64,000 bases of DNA from a virus, in IMG/VR virus record IMGVR_UViG_3300030419_003252, positions 2,403 through 66,402 of that record; one strand, written 5' to 3'. The translations under genes were made by a program, and so were the position numbers. Positions 4,887-64,000 of this stretch are shown here, piece after piece. Under the pieces are notes generated by a model, which worked only from the letters and a program-made list of their open reading frames with translations, did not search any database and was not told the origin of the DNA. Every line of letters begins with the position of its first letter. Positions within the stretch are counted from its first letter, which is position 1.

Positions 4887-5972
4887 ATGGCTACTGCTAT
4901 AGAAGTCAGGGAGCGAAGTTCCCTGTCAGGCTGGCCTGAGTTTTGTGAGTGGGTTACATCTACAAATAACCGTATCTACGTCGGTTGGTTTGGAGTATTA
5001 ATGATCCCTTGCTTGCTAACAGCAGCCACTTGTTTCATAATTGCGTTCATCGCTGCCCCACCCGTAGATATTGATGGAATTAGAGAACCAGTTGCAGGAT
5101 CATTCCTGTACGGAAACAACATCATATCTGGAGCAATCGTCCCATCATCTAACGCAATCGGTCTTCACTTCTACCCAATCTGGGAAGCTGCAACCCTCGA
5201 CGAGTGGTTGTATAACGGAGGACCATATCAACTCATTGTGTTCCACTTTCTCATCGGTATCAGTGCTTACATGGGACGCCAATGGGAACTTAGTTATCGA
5301 CTAGGGATGAGGCCCTGGATCTGTGTTGCTTACTCCGCACCAGTCTCAGCCGCTTTCGCTGTCTTCTTGGTCTATCCTTTCGGACAAGGATCATTCAGTG
5401 ACGGTATGCCTCTCGGCATTTCAGGTACATTCAACTTTATGTTTGTCTTTCAGGCGGAACATAATATCCTCATGCATCCATTCCACATGGCTGGCGTGGC
5501 GGGTATGTTTGGTGGTGCCTTGTTTAGTGCTATGCATGGTTCACTTGTCACATCTTCACTTATCCGTGAAACCACAGAGAATGAGTCTCAGAACTATGGA
5601 TACAAATTCGGACAAGAAGAAGAGACGTATAACATCGTCGCAGCCCATGGCTACTTCGGACGTCTTATCTTCCAATACGCCTCCTTTAACAACTCTCGTA
5701 GTTTACATTTCTTTCTTGCTTCTTGGCCTGTTATTTGCATATGGCTCACCTCAATGGGTATATGCACCATGGCATTCAACTTGAATGGATTCAACTTCAA
5801 CCAATCAGTTGTTGATAGCTCAGGTAAAGTTGTACCAACATGGGGAGACGTTCTTAATAGAGCAAACCTTGGTATGGAAGTAATGCACGAGCGTAATGCT
5901 CACAACTTCCCACTTGATCTAGCAGTTGCTGGGACTAGTGAAGTTGCACTTGTTACTCCTGCCATAGGATAA
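4887..5972 (+). CDS. psbA: photosystem II reaction-centre protein D1
   Basis: 361 residues, full length, near-identical in pattern to cyanobacterial D1. It binds the P680 pigments, Q-B and the manganese cluster in the thylakoid. Visible landmarks are [20 protein letters not shown] at the N-terminus, [13 protein letters not shown] in the middle, and [17 protein letters not shown], where the His-Glu, His and Asp manganese ligands and the processing Ala are intact. The position equivalent to residue 130 is Gln ([12 protein letters not shown]), the D1:1-like state. Base composition is visibly less AT-rich than neighbouring phage genes, consistent with host origin. Expected role: replacing photodamaged D1 during infection. 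A terminator follows at 6062. Confidence 0.99.
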
Positions 5973-6131: not shown

Positions 6132-6338
6132 ATGGATAAAGACGACGTTAAAAAATTAATAGATCGTTCCATTGAAATTGCAATGGATAAGCATAATCGC
6201 AATGCCACAATCATTAGTGCAATCTTAGGTTTCTTTTGTTTAGCTGCTTTTGTGGATGGTCTATTTAGAATCCTTGGAAGAATTCCTCCTTTTTTAGGAT
6301 TAGATGTAAATATTATTCCTAGTCTTATAGGACAATGA
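6132..6338 (+). CDS. 68-residue single-span membrane protein
   Basis: A charged N-terminal helix (MDKDDVKKLIDRSIEIAMDK) is followed by a hydrophobic segment (ATIISAILGFFCLAAFVDGL) and a second weaker one. No known family. It is the first gene after the psbA terminator and overlaps the next peptide by four bases. Small membrane proteins of this kind are common beside photosynthesis genes in cyanophages; function unknown. Confidence 0.65.
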   Translation: MDKDDVKKLIDRSIEIAMDKHNRNATIISAILGFFCLAAFVDGLFRILGRIPPFLGLDVNIIPSLIGQ

Positions 6339-19344: not shown

Positions 19345-19725
19345 ATGGCTCGTTTTCAATCGGTTTGCCGAGCAAGTATTTCAAATAATTCTGGCTCACC
19401 AACTACAATTATAACTGGGTCAACAAACTCAAGTGGAGTTCCTGCTACAACTTACGGAGTTATATTAAGTATTCTGGCATCAAATAAAACAGCTAACTCA
19501 GCAGATGTCACAGTTAATTTGATTAAGGCAGGTGGTACTGGAAGTCAAGTTATAAGTTCTTTAATTACTTCTGGAAATGTTCCAAATAAATCTTCTTTAG
19601 AATTTATGACGGGAAATAAAATTATTATCGAACCAGGGGATTGGATTAAAGCTTACGCAGGAACTGCAAGTGCAATAGATATAACTGTTTCTTACATGCT
19701 TAACCCACAAGATACAACTATCTGA
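19345..19725 (+). CDS. small virion protein in fibre cluster
   Basis: 126 residues, beta-rich, no signal peptide, ending with YMLNPQDTTI. Its Ser/Thr/Gly composition and location between fibre genes suggest a head-fibre or tail accessory protein. The gene that follows begins two bases after its stop region, so the two are likely co-translated. Confidence 0.6.
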   Translation: MARFQSVCRASISNNSGSPTTIITGSTNSSGVPATTYGVILSILASNKTANSADVTVNLIKAGGTGSQVISSLITSGNVPNKSSLEFMTGNKIIIEPGDWIKAYAGTASAIDITVSYMLNPQDTTI

Positions 19726-19727
19726 TC

Positions 19728-21686
19728 ATGCCATATATAGGTAACATTACTTCTGATTTCAGTATTGATACTGGAAATATAACTAATAGGGCAGTCACTG
19801 CTACAAAGTTAAGCCCTTCAAGTGTTGGTTCTAATGGTCAAGTATTAAGTATAGATGGAAGTGGAAATTTACAATGGGGAAATGATGCTAATGCTCCAGA
19901 AGGTACAGCTGTTTTATCTACAGGTGAATCAGGAACTACTAAATATTTAAGAGTAGATGGAGATGGAACTTGTTCTTGGCAGTTAGCAGTTGATGCAACA
20001 AAAACAACATTAACAGGAAGTACAGATAATACTATTACAACCGTTACAGGTGCAAATGCGATTCAAGGTGAAGCAAACTTAACTTTTGATGGAAGCACTC
20101 TAGCTCTTGCTGGCAATATGCAGTTTACTGCTGCTAATGCACAAATTGAATTTAATAATGGAGGTCCAAGATTTTGGAGTCCAGCAGCAAATACACTTAC
20201 TATTCATACTGGTGGTGGATTTGATTCAACAGATTATGAAAGACTTCGTGTTGATTCAAGTGGAAATGTAGGTATAGGTACAACAAGTCCAACTGCTAGA
20301 TTAGATGTTCGACGTGGTGATGAAGACGGTAAAATTGCAGAATTTCATACAAGTACTGGTTTCGGATTTGAACTAGGTTCAAGTCAAACAGTGGCTTATA
20401 TTGCATCTGGTAATGCCCAGATATTTCATCTAAAAACTCATAATGGTACAAACTCACTAGAACGGTTAACAATTAAATCTGATGGAAAAGTAGGTATTGG
20501 TACAACTAGTCCAGAAGATTTATTACATATAAAAAGTGGAAAAATAAGAATAGAAAATGAAATAGTTTCAAATAACGATTCGACTATTAGTTACGACAAT
20601 TCAGATTTTCTTATAGATGTAGATCCAAATAATGTTAGAGGTTCTAGTCAATTCCAAGTTAAAATAGACACGGTAGCTGGCTTAACTATTGATGATAATA
20701 GAAGAGTTGGAATAGGTACAACAAGTCCTGATTCATTACTTCATGTTGAATCAAGTGGTGCTACTTCTACAAGAATATCTGGCAATAGAGGTGATAGTAA
20801 TAATTTACATATAGCAAATATTGAATTTGAAAATACTTTTGATACTCAAGGTGTAATTGCAGAAATCAAAGCTATTACTGGTAGTAGTGGTACTCAAAGT
20901 ACTAAAGGTCAACTTACTTTCTCTACAGATGATGGATCTACATTTGCAGAACGTTTGCGTATAGATTCAGTTGGAAGAATACTTCTAGGAACTCAAAAAT
21001 CATTTGGTACTCAAAGTTATTATGATGATATTACTATTAATAATAGTGATAGTGATTCTGGAGCTGCAGGTGGAACAGGAATTAGTTTAATTTCTGGTAA
21101 TAATAGTTGGGGTGCAATATTATTTGGTGATAGTGATGATGATGATGTTGGATATATTAAATATGCACATAGTGGCGACTATATGAGGTTTGCTACAGGT
21201 ACTGGTATTAGATTTAGAATAGATAGTGATGGTGTTAAATTTAACGGTGAGACAGCAGCAGTTAATGGATTAAACGACTATGAAGAAGGTACATTCACAC
21301 CAACTTTAAGAGCTTATTTTAATGGTGCTTGGCGAGATAGTTCTTATACTACAGCTCCTAGTGAAACAGTTGGTTATTTTACAAGAGTTGGAAATCTTGT
21401 GTATATCTTTGGAAGATTTGTAGGTTTTGATTTGGATTCTGATTCAGATGGTGCTTATGCTGGATTTGGAGGATTACCATTTGATTCGGCATCAGGTACT
21501 GGAAAATATCCAATAATTCAAACATTTAATGCTAATTGTTTTGCTGATGCTGGTATTGGATTTTATATAGGTGCAAGTTCTAAATATGCTTACAGTGCTA
21601 GATATGATTCTGATGATGGACATACTACTTGGAGTAGCAGTAGTGGTAGAGGTTTTTGGTTCTGGGCTACTTATTTTGCTGCTTAA
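19728..21686 (+). CDS. large tail fibre, VGIGTTSP-repeat type
   Basis: 652 residues. The N-terminus (MPYIGNITSDFSIDTGNITN) matches the phage fibre start type that ends in ...Q-W. The body carries repeated V-G-I-G-T-T-S-P turns with D-S-S-G-N or S-D-G-K lead-ins, a hallmark of marine phage fibres. The C-terminal domain begins NDYEEGTFTPTLRAYF and is shared by at least three other fibres in this window. It should form a trimeric shaft with a receptor-binding tip. Confidence 0.85.
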   Translation: MPYIGNITSDFSIDTGNITNRAVTATKLSPSSVGSNGQVLSIDGSGNLQWGNDANAPEGTAVLSTGESGTTKYLRVDGDGTCSWQLAVDATKTTLTGSTDNTITTVTGANAIQGEANLTFDGSTLALAGNMQFTAANAQIEFNNGGPRFWSPAANTLTIHTGGGFDSTDYERLRVDSSGNVGIGTTSPTARLDVRRGDEDGKIAEFHTSTGFGFELGSSQTVAYIASGNAQIFHLKTHNGTNSLERLTIKSDGKVGIGTTSPEDLLHIKSGKIRIENEIVSNNDSTISYDNSDFLIDVDPNNVRGSSQFQVKIDTVAGLTIDDNRRVGIGTTSPDSLLHVESSGATSTRISGNRGDSNNLHIANIEFENTFDTQGVIAEIKAITGSSGTQSTKGQLTFSTDDGSTFAERLRIDSVGRILLGTQKSFGTQSYYDDITINNSDSDSGAAGGTGISLISGNNSWGAILFGDSDDDDVGYIKYAHSGDYMRFATGTGIRFRIDSDGVKFNGETAAVNGLNDYEEGTFTPTLRAYFNGAWRDSSYTTAPSETVGYFTRVGNLVYIFGRFVGFDLDSDSDGAYAGFGGLPFDSASGTGKYPIIQTFNANCFADAGIGFYIGASSKYAYSARYDSDDGHTTWSSSSGRGFWFWATYFAA

Positions 21687-61981: not shown

Positions 61982-62368
61982 TTAGAAAAGGATGCCCCAG
62001 ATGAATACAACAGCGGCAAGCACAAGTGCAAAGTCACGCTCTTGTCTTAAATCATCAATTGTTTTGGCATCCTCAGCCTGTATTACACAAGCTTCATCAA
62101 TGATGTCGGCTTTCAAGGATTTCTCAGTGATCTCCTGGATAGGTTCTACTGATACTTCCTTAGCTTTAGACACCTTGGGAGCTTGTATTTTCACAGGCTC
62201 TACAATCTTCTTAACTGCTTCTAACTCTTTGAGCTGTTGCTCTAGAGGAGTAGCAATTGCAAGTTGAGCTTGAAGGTCTTCCTTAGCTTGAGCAATTTCT
62301 GCTTCAATAGGATGAACAGCATGTTTTGCAACAGGGTTGTTCTTACGACTTCTAGTTCTTCGTGCCAT
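61982..62368 (-). CDS. coiled-coil membrane-anchored protein
   Basis: 128 residues from ATG 62368 (MARRTRSRKNNPVAKHAVHP). Basic start, a long coiled coil (AEIAQAKEDLQAQLAIATPL), Ala/Lys/Pro linker, then a C-terminal transmembrane segment (FALVLAAVVFIWGILF). The frame is open farther upstream but only through the RNA elements. The leader contains CAATTCAATTCC. Confidence 0.65.
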   Translation of the reverse strand: MARRTRSRKNNPVAKHAVHPIEAEIAQAKEDLQAQLAIATPLEQQLKELEAVKKIVEPVKIQAPKVSKAKEVSVEPIQEITEKSLKADIIDEACVIQAEDAKTIDDLRQERDFALVLAAVVFIWGILF

Positions 62369-62428: not shown

Positions 62429-62474
62429 CGAGGGAGGGGAGTTGAACCCCTCCAAAGATGCCTACATCTCTCGG
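62429..62474 (-). ncRNA. stop-codon tRNA-like element E6
   Basis: Outer stem CGAG/CTCG; small hairpin AGATG-TAGG-CATCT whose loop contains the UAG stop of the SSB-like gene; T-arm-like hairpin GGAGGGG-TTCAACT-CCCCTCC. The loop fits the tRNA T-loop pattern (U-K-C-R-A-N-Y). Overlaps the end of the 62462 coding sequence. Confidence 0.6.
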
Positions 62475-62899
62475 TTAGCCATTGATACGCCAACATTGCC
62501 AGCGCAATCAGTAGCTATTGTTCCACCAGAAGCTTTCGCCTCTGCTGTCGCTTCAGCTAATTCACGTAGTTCTCTACTGATCTTTCCAAGACCATTATCG
62601 ACTGAACGTGAAGAGGTGACAACAACCTGATACCTACCACGAGGTTCTCCAGTATTCTTGTCAGTCCAAGTGTTGTAGGAGTTACGTGTCGTTAAGGCAA
62701 TGTTATCGCCTTTGTTGAAACGTTCGGAGATCTTCTTACCATCGCCATTGAAAGCAATGACAGGTTGAGCGGATTCTCCGTCTCTAGAACCCATTGGGAT
62801 GACACGGAATTCAGTGATGGCTACACCATCCTTTGGATAACGTGTGGTGATGTCGGTCACGATGCGACCTACAAGAGTACCTTGGTTGAATACAGACAT
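62462..62899 (-). CDS. SSB-like OB-fold protein
   Basis: 145 residues from ATG 62899 (a longer start is inside RNA element territory). MSVFNQGTLVGRIVTDITTR and AITEFRVIPMGSRDGE resemble the first strands of SSB. GRYQVVVTSSRSVDNGLGKI closes the OB-fold, then a helical tail. No acidic DDIPF-type tip. A second ssDNA-binding protein or a regulator of one. CAATTCAAATC leader; the UAG stop lies in element E6. Confidence 0.7.
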   Translation of the reverse strand: MSVFNQGTLVGRIVTDITTRYPKDGVAITEFRVIPMGSRDGESAQPVIAFNGDGKKISERFNKGDNIALTTRNSYNTWTDKNTGEPRGRYQVVVTSSRSVDNGLGKISRELRELAEATAEAKASGGTIATDCAGNVGVSMANREM

Positions 62900-62916
62900 G
62901 AGCTGATTTGAATTGT

Positions 62917-62949
62917 GTGGCTGGACTAGTTCCACTGGTTAGAGTCCAA
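62917..62949 (-). promoter_or_regulatory. pseudoknot-like / bistable module B
   Basis: Minus strand order TTGGACT, CTAACCA, GTGG, AACT, AGTCCAG, CCAC. Same pairing scheme as module A with changes in the linker and in one stem base (G-U to U-A). Ends 17 bases before the SSB-like ATG. Confidence 0.6.
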
Positions 62950-62951
62950 TA

Positions 62952-62996
62952 CCAAGCCAGGAGATTTGATCTCCCAGCATCACGCTTATGACTTGG
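62952..62996 (-). ncRNA. stop-codon tRNA-like element E5
   Basis: Outer stem CCAAG/CTTGG; hairpin TCAT-AAGC-GTGA holding the UAA stop of the 62986 gene; T-arm-like CTGGGAG-ATCAAAT-CTCCTGG. Outer and T-stem together give 12 stacked pairs, as in tRNA acceptor plus T-arm. Confidence 0.6.
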
Positions 62997-63177
62997 TTGG
63001 GTATCCAAAATCATCACAGAAGTTGAGATGATTCTGGTGTAAGTGTTCAGGCCAATCATGTGTAAGGCACTGATGAGCAGTAGCCTTATCAATTAGATGA
63101 CCAATCACAGAGGGAATGCCTATAAAGAAAGCTGCCGTAGCAGCTACTGATAGAACAGCTTTATAAGGGGTAGGCAT
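62986..63177 (-). CDS. 63-residue membrane protein
   Basis: MPTPYKAVLSVAATAAFFIG then IPSVIGHLIDKATAHQCLTH: a hydrophobic segment followed by a His-rich polar tail ending FGYPTKS. Its ATG is only five bases after the U-tract of a terminator-like hairpin and has no Shine-Dalgarno. Function unknown. Confidence 0.6.
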   Translation of the reverse strand: MPTPYKAVLSVAATAAFFIGIPSVIGHLIDKATAHQCLTHDWPEHLHQNHLNFCDDFGYPTKS

Positions 63178-63188
63178 GGTTAAAAAAA

Positions 63189-63207
63189 ACTACTCTCAGC
63201 GAGTAGT
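63189..63207 (-). terminator. hairpin with GCUGA loop and U-tract
   Basis: ACTACTC-GCTGA-GAGTAGT on the minus strand, followed by eight T. It has the look of an intrinsic terminator, placed just before the 63177 ATG. Shares its loop type with 63429 and 63669. Confidence 0.7.
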
Positions 63208-63210
63208 AAT

Positions 63211-63251
63211 ACCGAGGGAGGGGAATCGAACCCCTCCTTCACCTTCTCGGT
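63211..63251 (-). ncRNA. stop-codon tRNA-like element E4
   Basis: Outer stem ACCGAG/CTCGGT begins at the last base of the UAA stop of the 63251 gene. T-arm-like GGAGGGG-TTCGATT-CCCCTCC has a textbook T-loop. The spacer AAGGTGAA can alternatively pair with TTCAC ahead of the stop (TTCAC...GTGAA), which would place the stop in a loop. Confidence 0.65.
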
Positions 63252-63415
63252 TAGTGAATCAACTTTGGATCAGATACAAGATTAGTGATCCATGCATCCC
63301 ATTCCTCTGGGGAGAAATTATCTGCAACGATCTTTGGAAAATCTTGTGCAATGAGTCCAAGATCCTTAAGGATTCTTGTGTCATGTTTAAATCTACGTTG
63401 ATTTGAGTTAGCCAT
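63251..63415 (-). CDS. 54-residue hypothetical protein
   Basis: From ATG 63415 (MANSNQRRFKHDTRILKDLG); the longer frame to 63469 runs through element E3. Helical with a basic first half and an acidic second (FSPEEWDAWITNLVSDPKL). No family recognised. Leader TTCAGCTCA without Shine-Dalgarno. Confidence 0.6.
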   Translation of the reverse strand: MANSNQRRFKHDTRILKDLGLIAQDFPKIVADNFSPEEWDAWITNLVSDPKLIH

Positions 63416-63428
63416 TGAGCTGAATAAA

Positions 63429-63445
63429 CCATCCTCAGTGGATGG
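63429..63445 (-). promoter_or_regulatory. hairpin with ACUGA loop
   Basis: CCATCC-ACTGA-GGATGG on the minus strand. Its loop CTGA could pair with TCAG 8 bases downstream, next to the 63415 ATG. Confidence 0.55.
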
Positions 63446-63449
63446 CAAT

Positions 63450-63494
63450 GGATAAGGGAGGGATTGCACCTCCCACTAGCCTTACGCTTTATCC
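63450..63494 (-). ncRNA. stop-codon tRNA-like element E3
   Basis: Outer stem GGATAA/TTATCC; hairpin AGC-GTAAG-GCT with the UAA stop of the 63482 gene in its loop; T-arm-like GGGAGG-TGCAATC-CCTCCC. Outer plus T-stem give 12 pairs. Confidence 0.65.
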
Positions 63495-63658
63495 TCTTCC
63501 TTAGCAGCAGGAAGTTGTGGTTCCGTGTAGATCATCTGGGCGATGCCTCTACGGAGATCTCTAGTAGCAGTTCTAATTTGCTTAGGGTTTTCAATGACAT
63601 CACCTGTCATATGGAATCCTTTAGCAACTATGCTCTGTACTTTAGATAAGATCTTCAT
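63482..63658 (-). CDS. 58-residue hypothetical protein
   Basis: ATG 63658 to TAA 63482. MKILSKVQSIVAKGFHMTGD then IENPKQIRTATRDLRRGIAQ and an acidic Lys tail. Helical, amphipathic. The gene sits exactly between two tRNA-like elements, like its neighbours, which supports it. Unknown function. Confidence 0.65.
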   Translation of the reverse strand: MKILSKVQSIVAKGFHMTGDVIENPKQIRTATRDLRRGIAQMIYTEPQLPAAKEEDKA

Positions 63659-63668
63659 TGGTTTAATG

Positions 63669-63687
63669 ACTACTCTCAGTGAGTAGT
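63669..63687 (-). promoter_or_regulatory. hairpin with ACUGA loop
   Basis: ACTACTC-ACTGA-GAGTAGT on the minus strand, same stem as 63189-63207 but with no U-tract after it (CATTAAACC then ATG). So these hairpins are not all terminators. Confidence 0.6.
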
Positions 63688-63691
63688 AATG

Positions 63692-63734
63692 GCTATTGGG
63701 GGAGTTGCACCCCCCATGCCCCTAACGGGATAGC
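63692..63734 (-). ncRNA. stop-codon tRNA-like element E2
   Basis: Outer stem GCTAT/ATAGC; hairpin CCC-GTTA-GGG with the UAG stop of the 63722 gene spanning loop and stem; T-arm-like GGGGG-TGCAACT-CCCCC. Confidence 0.6.
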
Positions 63735-63937
63735 TTTAGGCGTATGCCTACGTCACATTTCTCTGCATATGCCCGTGTTGAAAAATCACCACTGAGCATT
63801 GCAATACGAGCGTTAACTTCGCCTAAGAAGGCAGCAGTACTGATATTAGAAATATCAGCTGAGTTAACGATGACGTTAAAACCGTTCAATAGGTTTCCAG
63901 CTGCTTGCCAGCATCTGTTCCAGAAGAGATCGGTCAT
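63722..63937 (-). CDS. 71-residue hypothetical protein
   Basis: MTDLFWNRCWQAAGNLLNGF then NSADISNISTAAFLGEVNAR. Helical, neutral. The leader holds a TTTGGA-GTTA-TCCAAA hairpin and module C. No family recognised. Confidence 0.65.
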   Translation of the reverse strand: MTDLFWNRCWQAAGNLLNGFNVIVNSADISNISTAAFLGEVNARIAMLSGDFSTRAYAEKCDVGIRLKLSR

Positions 63938-63955: not shown

Positions 63956-64000
63956 GGTGTGGTACCTATCTCCACGGGAGGTAAGACTGAGGGAAGGGAG
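63956..64000 (-). ncRNA. module C and truncated tRNA-like element E1
   Basis: At the window edge the minus strand starts with CTCCCTTCCCTCAGTC, consistent with the 3-prime half of another T-arm/outer stem. Then comes TACCT-CCC-GTGG-AGAT-AGGTA-CCAC (63956-63984), the same two-stem crossing scheme as modules A and B with a different stem sequence. The 5-prime half lies outside the window. Confidence 0.5.

Follow-up and report, generated by a model that had tools for sequence, protein, structure and literature searches.

In mitochondria, tRNAs that stand at gene borders punctuate the transcript as cut sites for tRNA enzymes, and in plant mitochondria tRNA mimics known as t-elements mark such sites as well. 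Here, we describe a related arrangement in a marine cyanophage. The window, meaning the whole stretch of 64,000 nucleotides (nt) that was analysed, comprises bases 2403–66402 of the 84,543-base IMG/VR cyanophage contig IMGVR_UViG_3300030419_003252. On its minus strand, each of six consecutive genes ends within, or directly before, one tRNA-like element (E1–E6). As in the mitochondrial systems, the structures occupy borders of co-directional genes, true tRNAs and mimics share the same slot, and the slot would be a site of cutting. We propose that the elements are probably RNase Z processing signals in phage mRNA and thus a phage version of tRNA punctuation and t-elements. In contrast to their mitochondrial counterparts, the cyanophage mimics stand in series, measure about 45 nt, lack a D arm and often overlap with the stop codon; a hairpin or pseudoknot comes after them, and their carriers are DNA phages of cyanobacteria.

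Mimicry that brings tRNA enzymes to a non-tRNA transcript is also known from the 3' tRNA-like structures of plant RNA viruses and from the mascRNA of MALAT1, a region where both RNase P and RNase Z cut. Those transcripts carry a single 3'-terminal element, whereas the cyanophage elements are repeated and internal, and have neither CCA nor a pseudoknotted acceptor.

All six elements share one order of parts: an outer stem, a short GG-containing linker or small hairpin, a T-arm with a 7-nt loop, and the 3' strand of the outer stem. On the 3' side, each is followed by N-UU, a second hairpin or H-type pseudoknot, and the next start codon. The elements and the structures behind them are as follows.

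63986–64028, minus strand: tRNA-like element E1, straddling the window edge (63986–64000, its 3' part, lies within the window); sequence ACTGAG-TGGGTTTTAA-GGAGGGG-TTCAACT-CCCTTCC-CTCAGT; the upstream gene's stop TGA lies inside the outer stem
63959–63985, minus strand: discriminator C, UU and H-type pseudoknot after E1, read directly; S1 63983–63979/63967–63963, S2 GUGG 63975–63972/CCAC 63962–63959
63692–63734, minus strand: tRNA-like element E2; outer stem GCUAU/AUAGC, T-loop UGCAACU; predicted cut A63690/U63689
63669–63691, minus strand: C-A-UU and hairpin ACUACUC-ACUGA-GAGUAGU after E2; next start codon at 63658
63450–63494, minus strand: tRNA-like element E3; outer stem GGAUAA/UUAUCC, 12-pair stack, T-loop UGCAAUC; predicted cut A63449/U63448
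63428–63449, minus strand: A-UU and hairpin GCCAUCC-ACUGA-GGAUGGU after E3
63211–63251, minus strand: tRNA-like element E4; outer stem ACCGAG/CUCGGU, D-loop-like AAGGUGAA, T-loop UUCGAUU; predicted cut A63210/U63209
63189–63210, minus strand: A-UU and hairpin ACUACUC-GCUGA-GAGUAGU, then a U run, after E4
62951–62997, minus strand: tRNA-like element E5; outer stem ACCAAG/CUUGGU, T-loop AUCAAAU, UAA stop in the side-hairpin loop; predicted cut A62950/U62949
62917–62950, minus strand: A-UU and H-type pseudoknot after E5; S1 62947–62943/62927–62923, S2 GUGG 62935–62932/CCAC 62920–62917
62429–62474, minus strand: tRNA-like element E6; outer stem CGAG/CUCG, side hairpin AGAUG-UAGG-CAUCU with the UAG stop, T-loop UUCAACU; predicted cut A62427/U62426
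62394–62427, minus strand: A-UU and H-type pseudoknot after E6; S1 62424–62420/62404–62400, S2 GUGG 62412–62409/CCAC 62397–62394

An initial annotation, made from the letters alone, had drawn E2–E6. All five lie where it placed them on the minus strand, E5 being better bounded at 62951–62997, and all five T-loops carry the invariant C56 and A58 that it had reported, with a G-C pair closing the loop. The stack of outer stem and T stem, which it had put at about 12 pairs, comprises 10–13 pairs per element, many having exactly 12. The elements thus have the T-loop NNCRANY, the G53-C61 pair and the 12-pair acceptor/T stack of a tRNA; they lack the D arm and anticodon arm, the junction being a short linker, usually with GG, or one side hairpin. 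The short hairpin that it had called clear in E2, E3, E5 and E6 was found there, whereas E4, for which it had given an alternative pairing, has a GG-containing, D-loop-like linker and no clear second hairpin. The stop codon lies in or at the side-hairpin loop in these four, as had been claimed; in E1 it is part of the outer stem, and in E4 it stands at the 5' edge of that stem. Across the family, it may precede the outer-stem start by up to 7 nt or follow it by up to 18 nt. A stop codon in a loop is therefore not a defining feature, and its placement is best read as an economical overlap of the reading frame with a 3' element. The hairpin or pseudoknot between each element and the next start codon was absent from the initial annotation and is added here. 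The pentaloop ACUGA (GCUGA once) recurs in post-element hairpins of unrelated phages while the stems vary (window 63680–63676, 63439–63435 and 63200–63196; also L024, L033 and the cultured phage P-SSP7), and may be a putative binding site.

Every window copy lies between a stop and a start codon, most of these starts have no obvious Shine-Dalgarno sequence, and pseudoknots follow E1, E5 and E6. Together with the stop codons so often held in the side-hairpin loop, this would suit a translational role, in which the mimic enters the ribosome and a pseudoknot before the start codon supports termination-coupled reinitiation or initiation of the internal ribosome entry site type. We consider such a role distinctly improbable. 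Counted from the start of the acceptor, the stop codon is found anywhere between −7 and +18. In the window, start codons follow their element at about 33–62 nt, and the P-SSP7 capsid gene begins about 140 nt away from its own; no annotated gene immediately precedes the leader copies of S-SBP1, S-RIP2 and P-SSP7. A translational role also leaves unexplained the fixed 13-nt spacing to UU and the replacement of the element by ordinary tRNA genes.

The spacing points to a tRNA 3'-end enzyme. The position 13 nt after the T-loop corresponds to five T-stem nucleotides, seven acceptor nucleotides and one discriminator, that is, to N73. Among 39 array and leader elements, a few of them from loci fetched by patterns matching neighbouring copies (e.g. 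L007 and L012), N73 is followed by U in 33 and by UU in 28, and CCA is encoded in none. Host tRNA genes of Prochlorococcus and Synechococcus have U after N73 in 23/31 cases and CCA in 0/31. Both hosts encode RNase Z (TIGR02651; 381 and 346 bits, cut-off 293), and the absence of CCA after N73 together with U at +1 gives the elements the context of an RNase Z substrate. Bacterial RNase Z cuts CCA-less tRNAs after the discriminator (PMC8549757) and grips the tRNA elbow (PMC4810234), and model cyanobacteria have a single RNase Z gene (PMC10989914). In the Bacillus subtilis enzyme, the U after the discriminator enters a pocket and is needed for hydrolysis (PMC11649783, citing Pellegrini 2012). In 32/39 elements, a stem of at least 5 bp begins no more than 3 nt from the predicted new 5' end, compared with a mean of 10 and a maximum of 18 in shuffled sequences.

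The initial annotation had named RNase P, RNase Z, EF-Tu or modification enzymes, or reinitiation, as possible users of the structure. The 12-pair stack, N73 followed by U or UU, the lack of CCA and the hairpin just downstream favour RNase Z over RNase P, EF-Tu and reinitiation. RNase P recognises the same acceptor/T stack and T-loop, and bona fide tRNAs in the slot also need their 5' ends cut. It might therefore be the main enzyme, by itself or together with RNase Z, cutting 5' of the acceptor stack and freeing a small tRNA-like RNA. This is unlikely, since such a cut would strip the upstream gene's stop codon in most copies, and since the conserved context lies on the 3' side. That the elements merely stabilise or terminate transcripts and stay uncut, as 3' caps, binding sites for EF-Tu or the CCA enzyme, or terminators, seems very improbable to us. 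They are folded and stand at gene ends, and the hairpin and U run after E4 resemble an intrinsic terminator, but a U run occurs in E4 only, and the UU at a fixed place with an immediately adjoining hairpin would go unexplained.

The structure and the family of elements are near certain to be real. Scanned by geometry over its full 84.5 kb, both strands included, the contig yielded six matches, E1–E6, and nothing else. When a T-loop plus a near-complete 12-pair stack was sought, the elements and scattered weak matches were found, and the reversed sequence gave weak matches only. With a stricter loop definition, forward scans of cyanophage genomes yielded matches with UU at the N73 position, whereas reversed-sequence scans of 11 phage genomes yielded none with UU at the conserved place. 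Folding-energy z-scores for E2–E6 are moderate (−1.0, −2.2, −2.6, −3.7 and −2.4), and the case therefore rests on recurrence, geometry and covariation. A single sequence-based alignment for a covariance model was unworkable, as MAFFT misplaces the 5' acceptor strand when the junction length varies; we used a geometric descriptor with reversed-sequence controls in its place, and hence give no formal R-scape or Infernal E-values for the family.

Covariation of the stems, as first noticed among the five copies, was borne out by homologues. Across nine groups, two of which (the T7-like leader and capsid slots) are positional and not proven orthologues, we counted 33 double compensatory changes, 2 single consistent changes, one gained pair and no losses. 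If the S-RIP2 comparison and the capsid group are set aside, the close orthologues by themselves supply 10 double changes, again without a loss. Changes between close orthologues include GC to UA in E3, AU to GC in the T stem of E5, AU to UA plus AU to GC in the outer stem of E5, UA to AU in the GGUAG element and three in a row in the AUCAUAG element. The downstream pseudoknot helix covaries as well, being GUGG/CCAC in the window and L043 and GCAG/CUGC in L007, L012 and L041. A supposed association of the side hairpin with a G in position 55 of the T-loop proved not significant (p 0.23).

The elements form an RNA family without a described counterpart, whose nearest known kind is mitochondrial tRNA punctuation and t-elements. 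This agrees with the initial view that no described family applied: at the Rfam gathering score, the mimics of the window and 14 loci had no match, and ARAGORN found no tRNA in the window. Neither ARAGORN nor the gathering threshold of the tRNA family RF00005 recovered the elements of the window, S-SBP1 or P-SSP7. That threshold was reached only by the true tRNAs of L024 (6323–6396) and L187 and, barely, by a degenerate form in L242 (30.0 against 29 bits). Nor do the elements match the Glutamine-II riboswitch (RF01704). Hammerhead ribozyme, Glutamine-II riboswitch and put-type antitermination were weighed and dropped, their defining sequences being absent. In literature searches, whose coverage is incomplete, such elements were not found described in phages.

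Comparison of capsid-gene leaders revealed what else can occupy the slot. We fetched 120 contigs by a conserved downstream capsid-leader sequence, blind to the element, and 102 distinct leaders had enough upstream sequence for classing. A T-loop minihelix is present in 41 (40 by script, L296 by eye), a bona fide tRNA-Gly(UCC) in two (L187 and L228), and another compact hairpin in 59. The last has the loop CACCUCAGAGU(C/A)GGAC and stands in the mimic slot upstream of a GACGGTGGGA-AGACCACA motif (L184, L189, L194 and others); the three named loci were tested against Rfam, and the hairpin had no match. UU lies 13 nt after the T-loop in 39/42 leaders of the T-loop and tRNA classes (U in 40/42) and at one fixed place in 58/59 of the other class, counts that are not independent, as the leaders are related to one another. 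The spacing to UU is thus kept across three different fold classes. In the array, the slot in L024 holds a true tRNA-Asp followed by G73, UUG, the hairpin GCAUCAC-ACUGA-GUGAUGC and AUG, so that true tRNA genes fill the slot in three phages (L024, L187 and L228). This interchange of tRNA and mimic is also characteristic of t-elements.

Three of the 41 minihelices (L225, L226 and L242) keep a 7-pair acceptor and an anticodon-like loop, UUUCCAA, and look like decayed tRNA-Gly. Such degenerate forms, and the integrases of several T7-like cyanophages, would fit an origin of the elements as functionless relics of tRNA genes or attP half-tRNA sequences. As an account of the whole family this is scarcely credible, given six different copies in one genome, fixed spacing, downstream hairpins, and acceptor complementarity maintained by double changes, which by itself disfavours decay.

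In P-SSP7 (L056 20522–20680), a Glutamine-II riboswitch lies just upstream of the capsid-slot element, and a small peptide open reading frame after the riboswitch ends inside the mimic, making one cassette of riboswitch, peptide and mimic. The riboswitch is adjacent but belongs to a separate family with a different fold. T7-like capsid leaders also share a palindrome and a GUGG-GAUAGA-CCAC segment (L056 20717–20743, L053 19377–19404, L054 20611–20641), which could form a compact structure.

Copies beyond the five originally drawn comprise E1 at the window edge and those of about ten further uncultured phages and of T7-like cyanophages in culture. The last were reached through an L024 cassette protein; searches against cultured phages by blastn with the array, and by tblastn with the single-stranded-DNA-binding protein (SSB) and with P0005, gave no match. 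The cultured carriers S-SBP1, S-TIP37, Syn5, P-SSP7, P-SSP10, S-RIP2 and S-CBP3 have one to four copies each, typically among early genes and, in S-SBP1, S-TIP37, Syn5 and P-SSP7, also in the leader of the major capsid gene. In P-SSP7, the hairpin downstream of the element, from 1047, is UUGCUACUCACUGAGAGUAGC, nearly identical to that of the window. New 5' ends are predicted at 650, 1047 and 20681 in P-SSP7 (NC_006882.2), where one element spans 20631–20679, at 19885 in Syn5 and at 19346 in S-SBP1. Scans of S-CBS2 (first 50 kb) and of phage T7, the latter as a control, found no element, and those of HTVC019P and P60 no convincing copy, a lone P60 match inside a virion gene being probably due to chance. 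T7-type phages do cut their polycistronic mRNA between genes, at RNase III sites, leaving folded 3' ends, and the cyanophage elements likewise occupy the early region and the stretch ahead of the capsid gene; however, they show tRNA geometry and an RNase Z context instead of an RNase III hairpin. At gene ends of S-CBP4 and S-RIP2 where relatives have a mimic, we observed another repeated intergenic structure, composed of ACACU, a hairpin and CUGUAGC (L047 840–900, 1165–1230 and 1555–1615; L050 2905–2960 and 3300–3350).

Among the uncultured relatives, L006 (SSB identity 87%) has all six elements and a seventh behind a gene inserted after E5. Its gene B has been exchanged for an unrelated gene while the flanking elements are unchanged, so that both unrelated proteins of this slot end in the same KLSR. 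A comparison of L006, L007 and L030 shows the tRNA-like element moving together with the gene upstream of it and the post-element hairpin with the gene behind it, so that cassettes meet at the predicted cut site. An additional role of the elements in gene-cassette exchange is possible. The intergenic PeSL cassettes of T4-type phages are likewise structured elements at cassette breakpoints, and PeSLs carry early promoters; here the fold is tRNA-like, and no promoter was recognised by eye in the array, no promoter scan having been made. We give very little credence to the elements being primarily DNA-level recombination linkers, like PeSLs or integron attC sites. Phages do exchange cassettes of downstream hairpin, reading frame and tRNA-like element, the breakpoints falling on element borders (as between the window and L006), but compensatory changes keep RNA pairing as the sequence diverges, which lowers homology for recombination, and no recombinase was recognised in the window array. 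Recombination is likely a by-product or second role, compatible with RNA processing.

Sequence comparison thus provides the structure, covariation, fixed spacing, downstream hairpin, interchange with tRNA and presence of RNase Z in the hosts, and these support the tRNA mimicry and mRNA punctuation suggested by the initial annotation; cleavage itself, the enzyme and the protective effect of the 5' structure are what we infer from them. In the mechanism we propose, minimal tRNA mimics with an acceptor/T-arm stack of about 12 pairs would mark cut sites in polycistronic phage mRNA. Host RNase Z, which matures tRNAs that the host encodes without CCA, would cleave between the unpaired N73 equivalent and the UU behind it. 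The mimic would stay on the upstream mRNA as a folded 3' end, and the downstream mRNA would start with 5'-UU and an immediate hairpin or pseudoknot, its monophosphate end being shielded from RNase E or J. A base-paired 5' end is known to shield RNA from RNase E. Since P-SSP7 raises host RNase E during infection (PMC9692554), protection of the 5' end would be useful.

Several points weigh against processing by RNase Z. Several elements have fewer than 12 pairs or a UU shifted to 14 nt, the shift being seen in three of the window's six, and in some elements the U after N73 has no second U behind it. E2 as drawn is not its minimum-energy fold. Because the phages behind the spacing counts are related, these counts are not independent. 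The action of picocyanobacterial RNase Z on D-armless minihelices is presumed, and a ribosome terminating at a stop codon inside an element would unfold that element.

Whether RNase Z processing extends to a general tRNA-mimic punctuation code, used by at least two lineages of marine cyanophages (T7-like podoviruses and the uncultured window type), we judge to be evenly balanced. The modules of the code could replace one another: a true or a degenerate tRNA, a D-armless mimic and perhaps a further class of minihelix with loop CACCUCAGAGUCGGAC, whose spacing to UU is also fixed. They would make RNase Z the processor of phage mRNA, and 5' hairpins would protect the products from RNase E. If true, this would be a mRNA-punctuation system of the mitochondrial type in a DNA virus and an unrecognised RNA family in abundant ocean phages, and would account for the monocistronic early and capsid mRNAs of T7-like cyanophages. 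Between a true tRNA gene and a minimal processing signal, the slot also displays graded intermediates, and the predictions are exact and cheap to pursue in the cultured, well-studied system of P-SSP7 and Prochlorococcus MED4.

The contig of the window contains psbA (91–92% identical to Prochlorococcus psbA), DNA polymerase and primase, in addition to the minus-strand array of small genes that includes SSB. The array genes are listed below.

63722–63937, minus strand: gene B, 71 residues, no family; an unrelated gene takes its place in L006 between the same two RNA elements
63482–63658, minus strand: gene C, 58 residues, no family
63251–63415, minus strand: gene D, 54 residues, no family
62986–63177, minus strand: gene E, 63 residues, no family
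62462–62899, minus strand: gene F, SSB (PF00436, E 5e-9)
61982–62368, minus strand: gene G, the last of the array, without a tRNA-like element after it

A candidate 9-residue leader peptide, MNKQHRLGH, terminates within the operon's first element (L013 at about 6210–6240; L024 at about 5265–5297).

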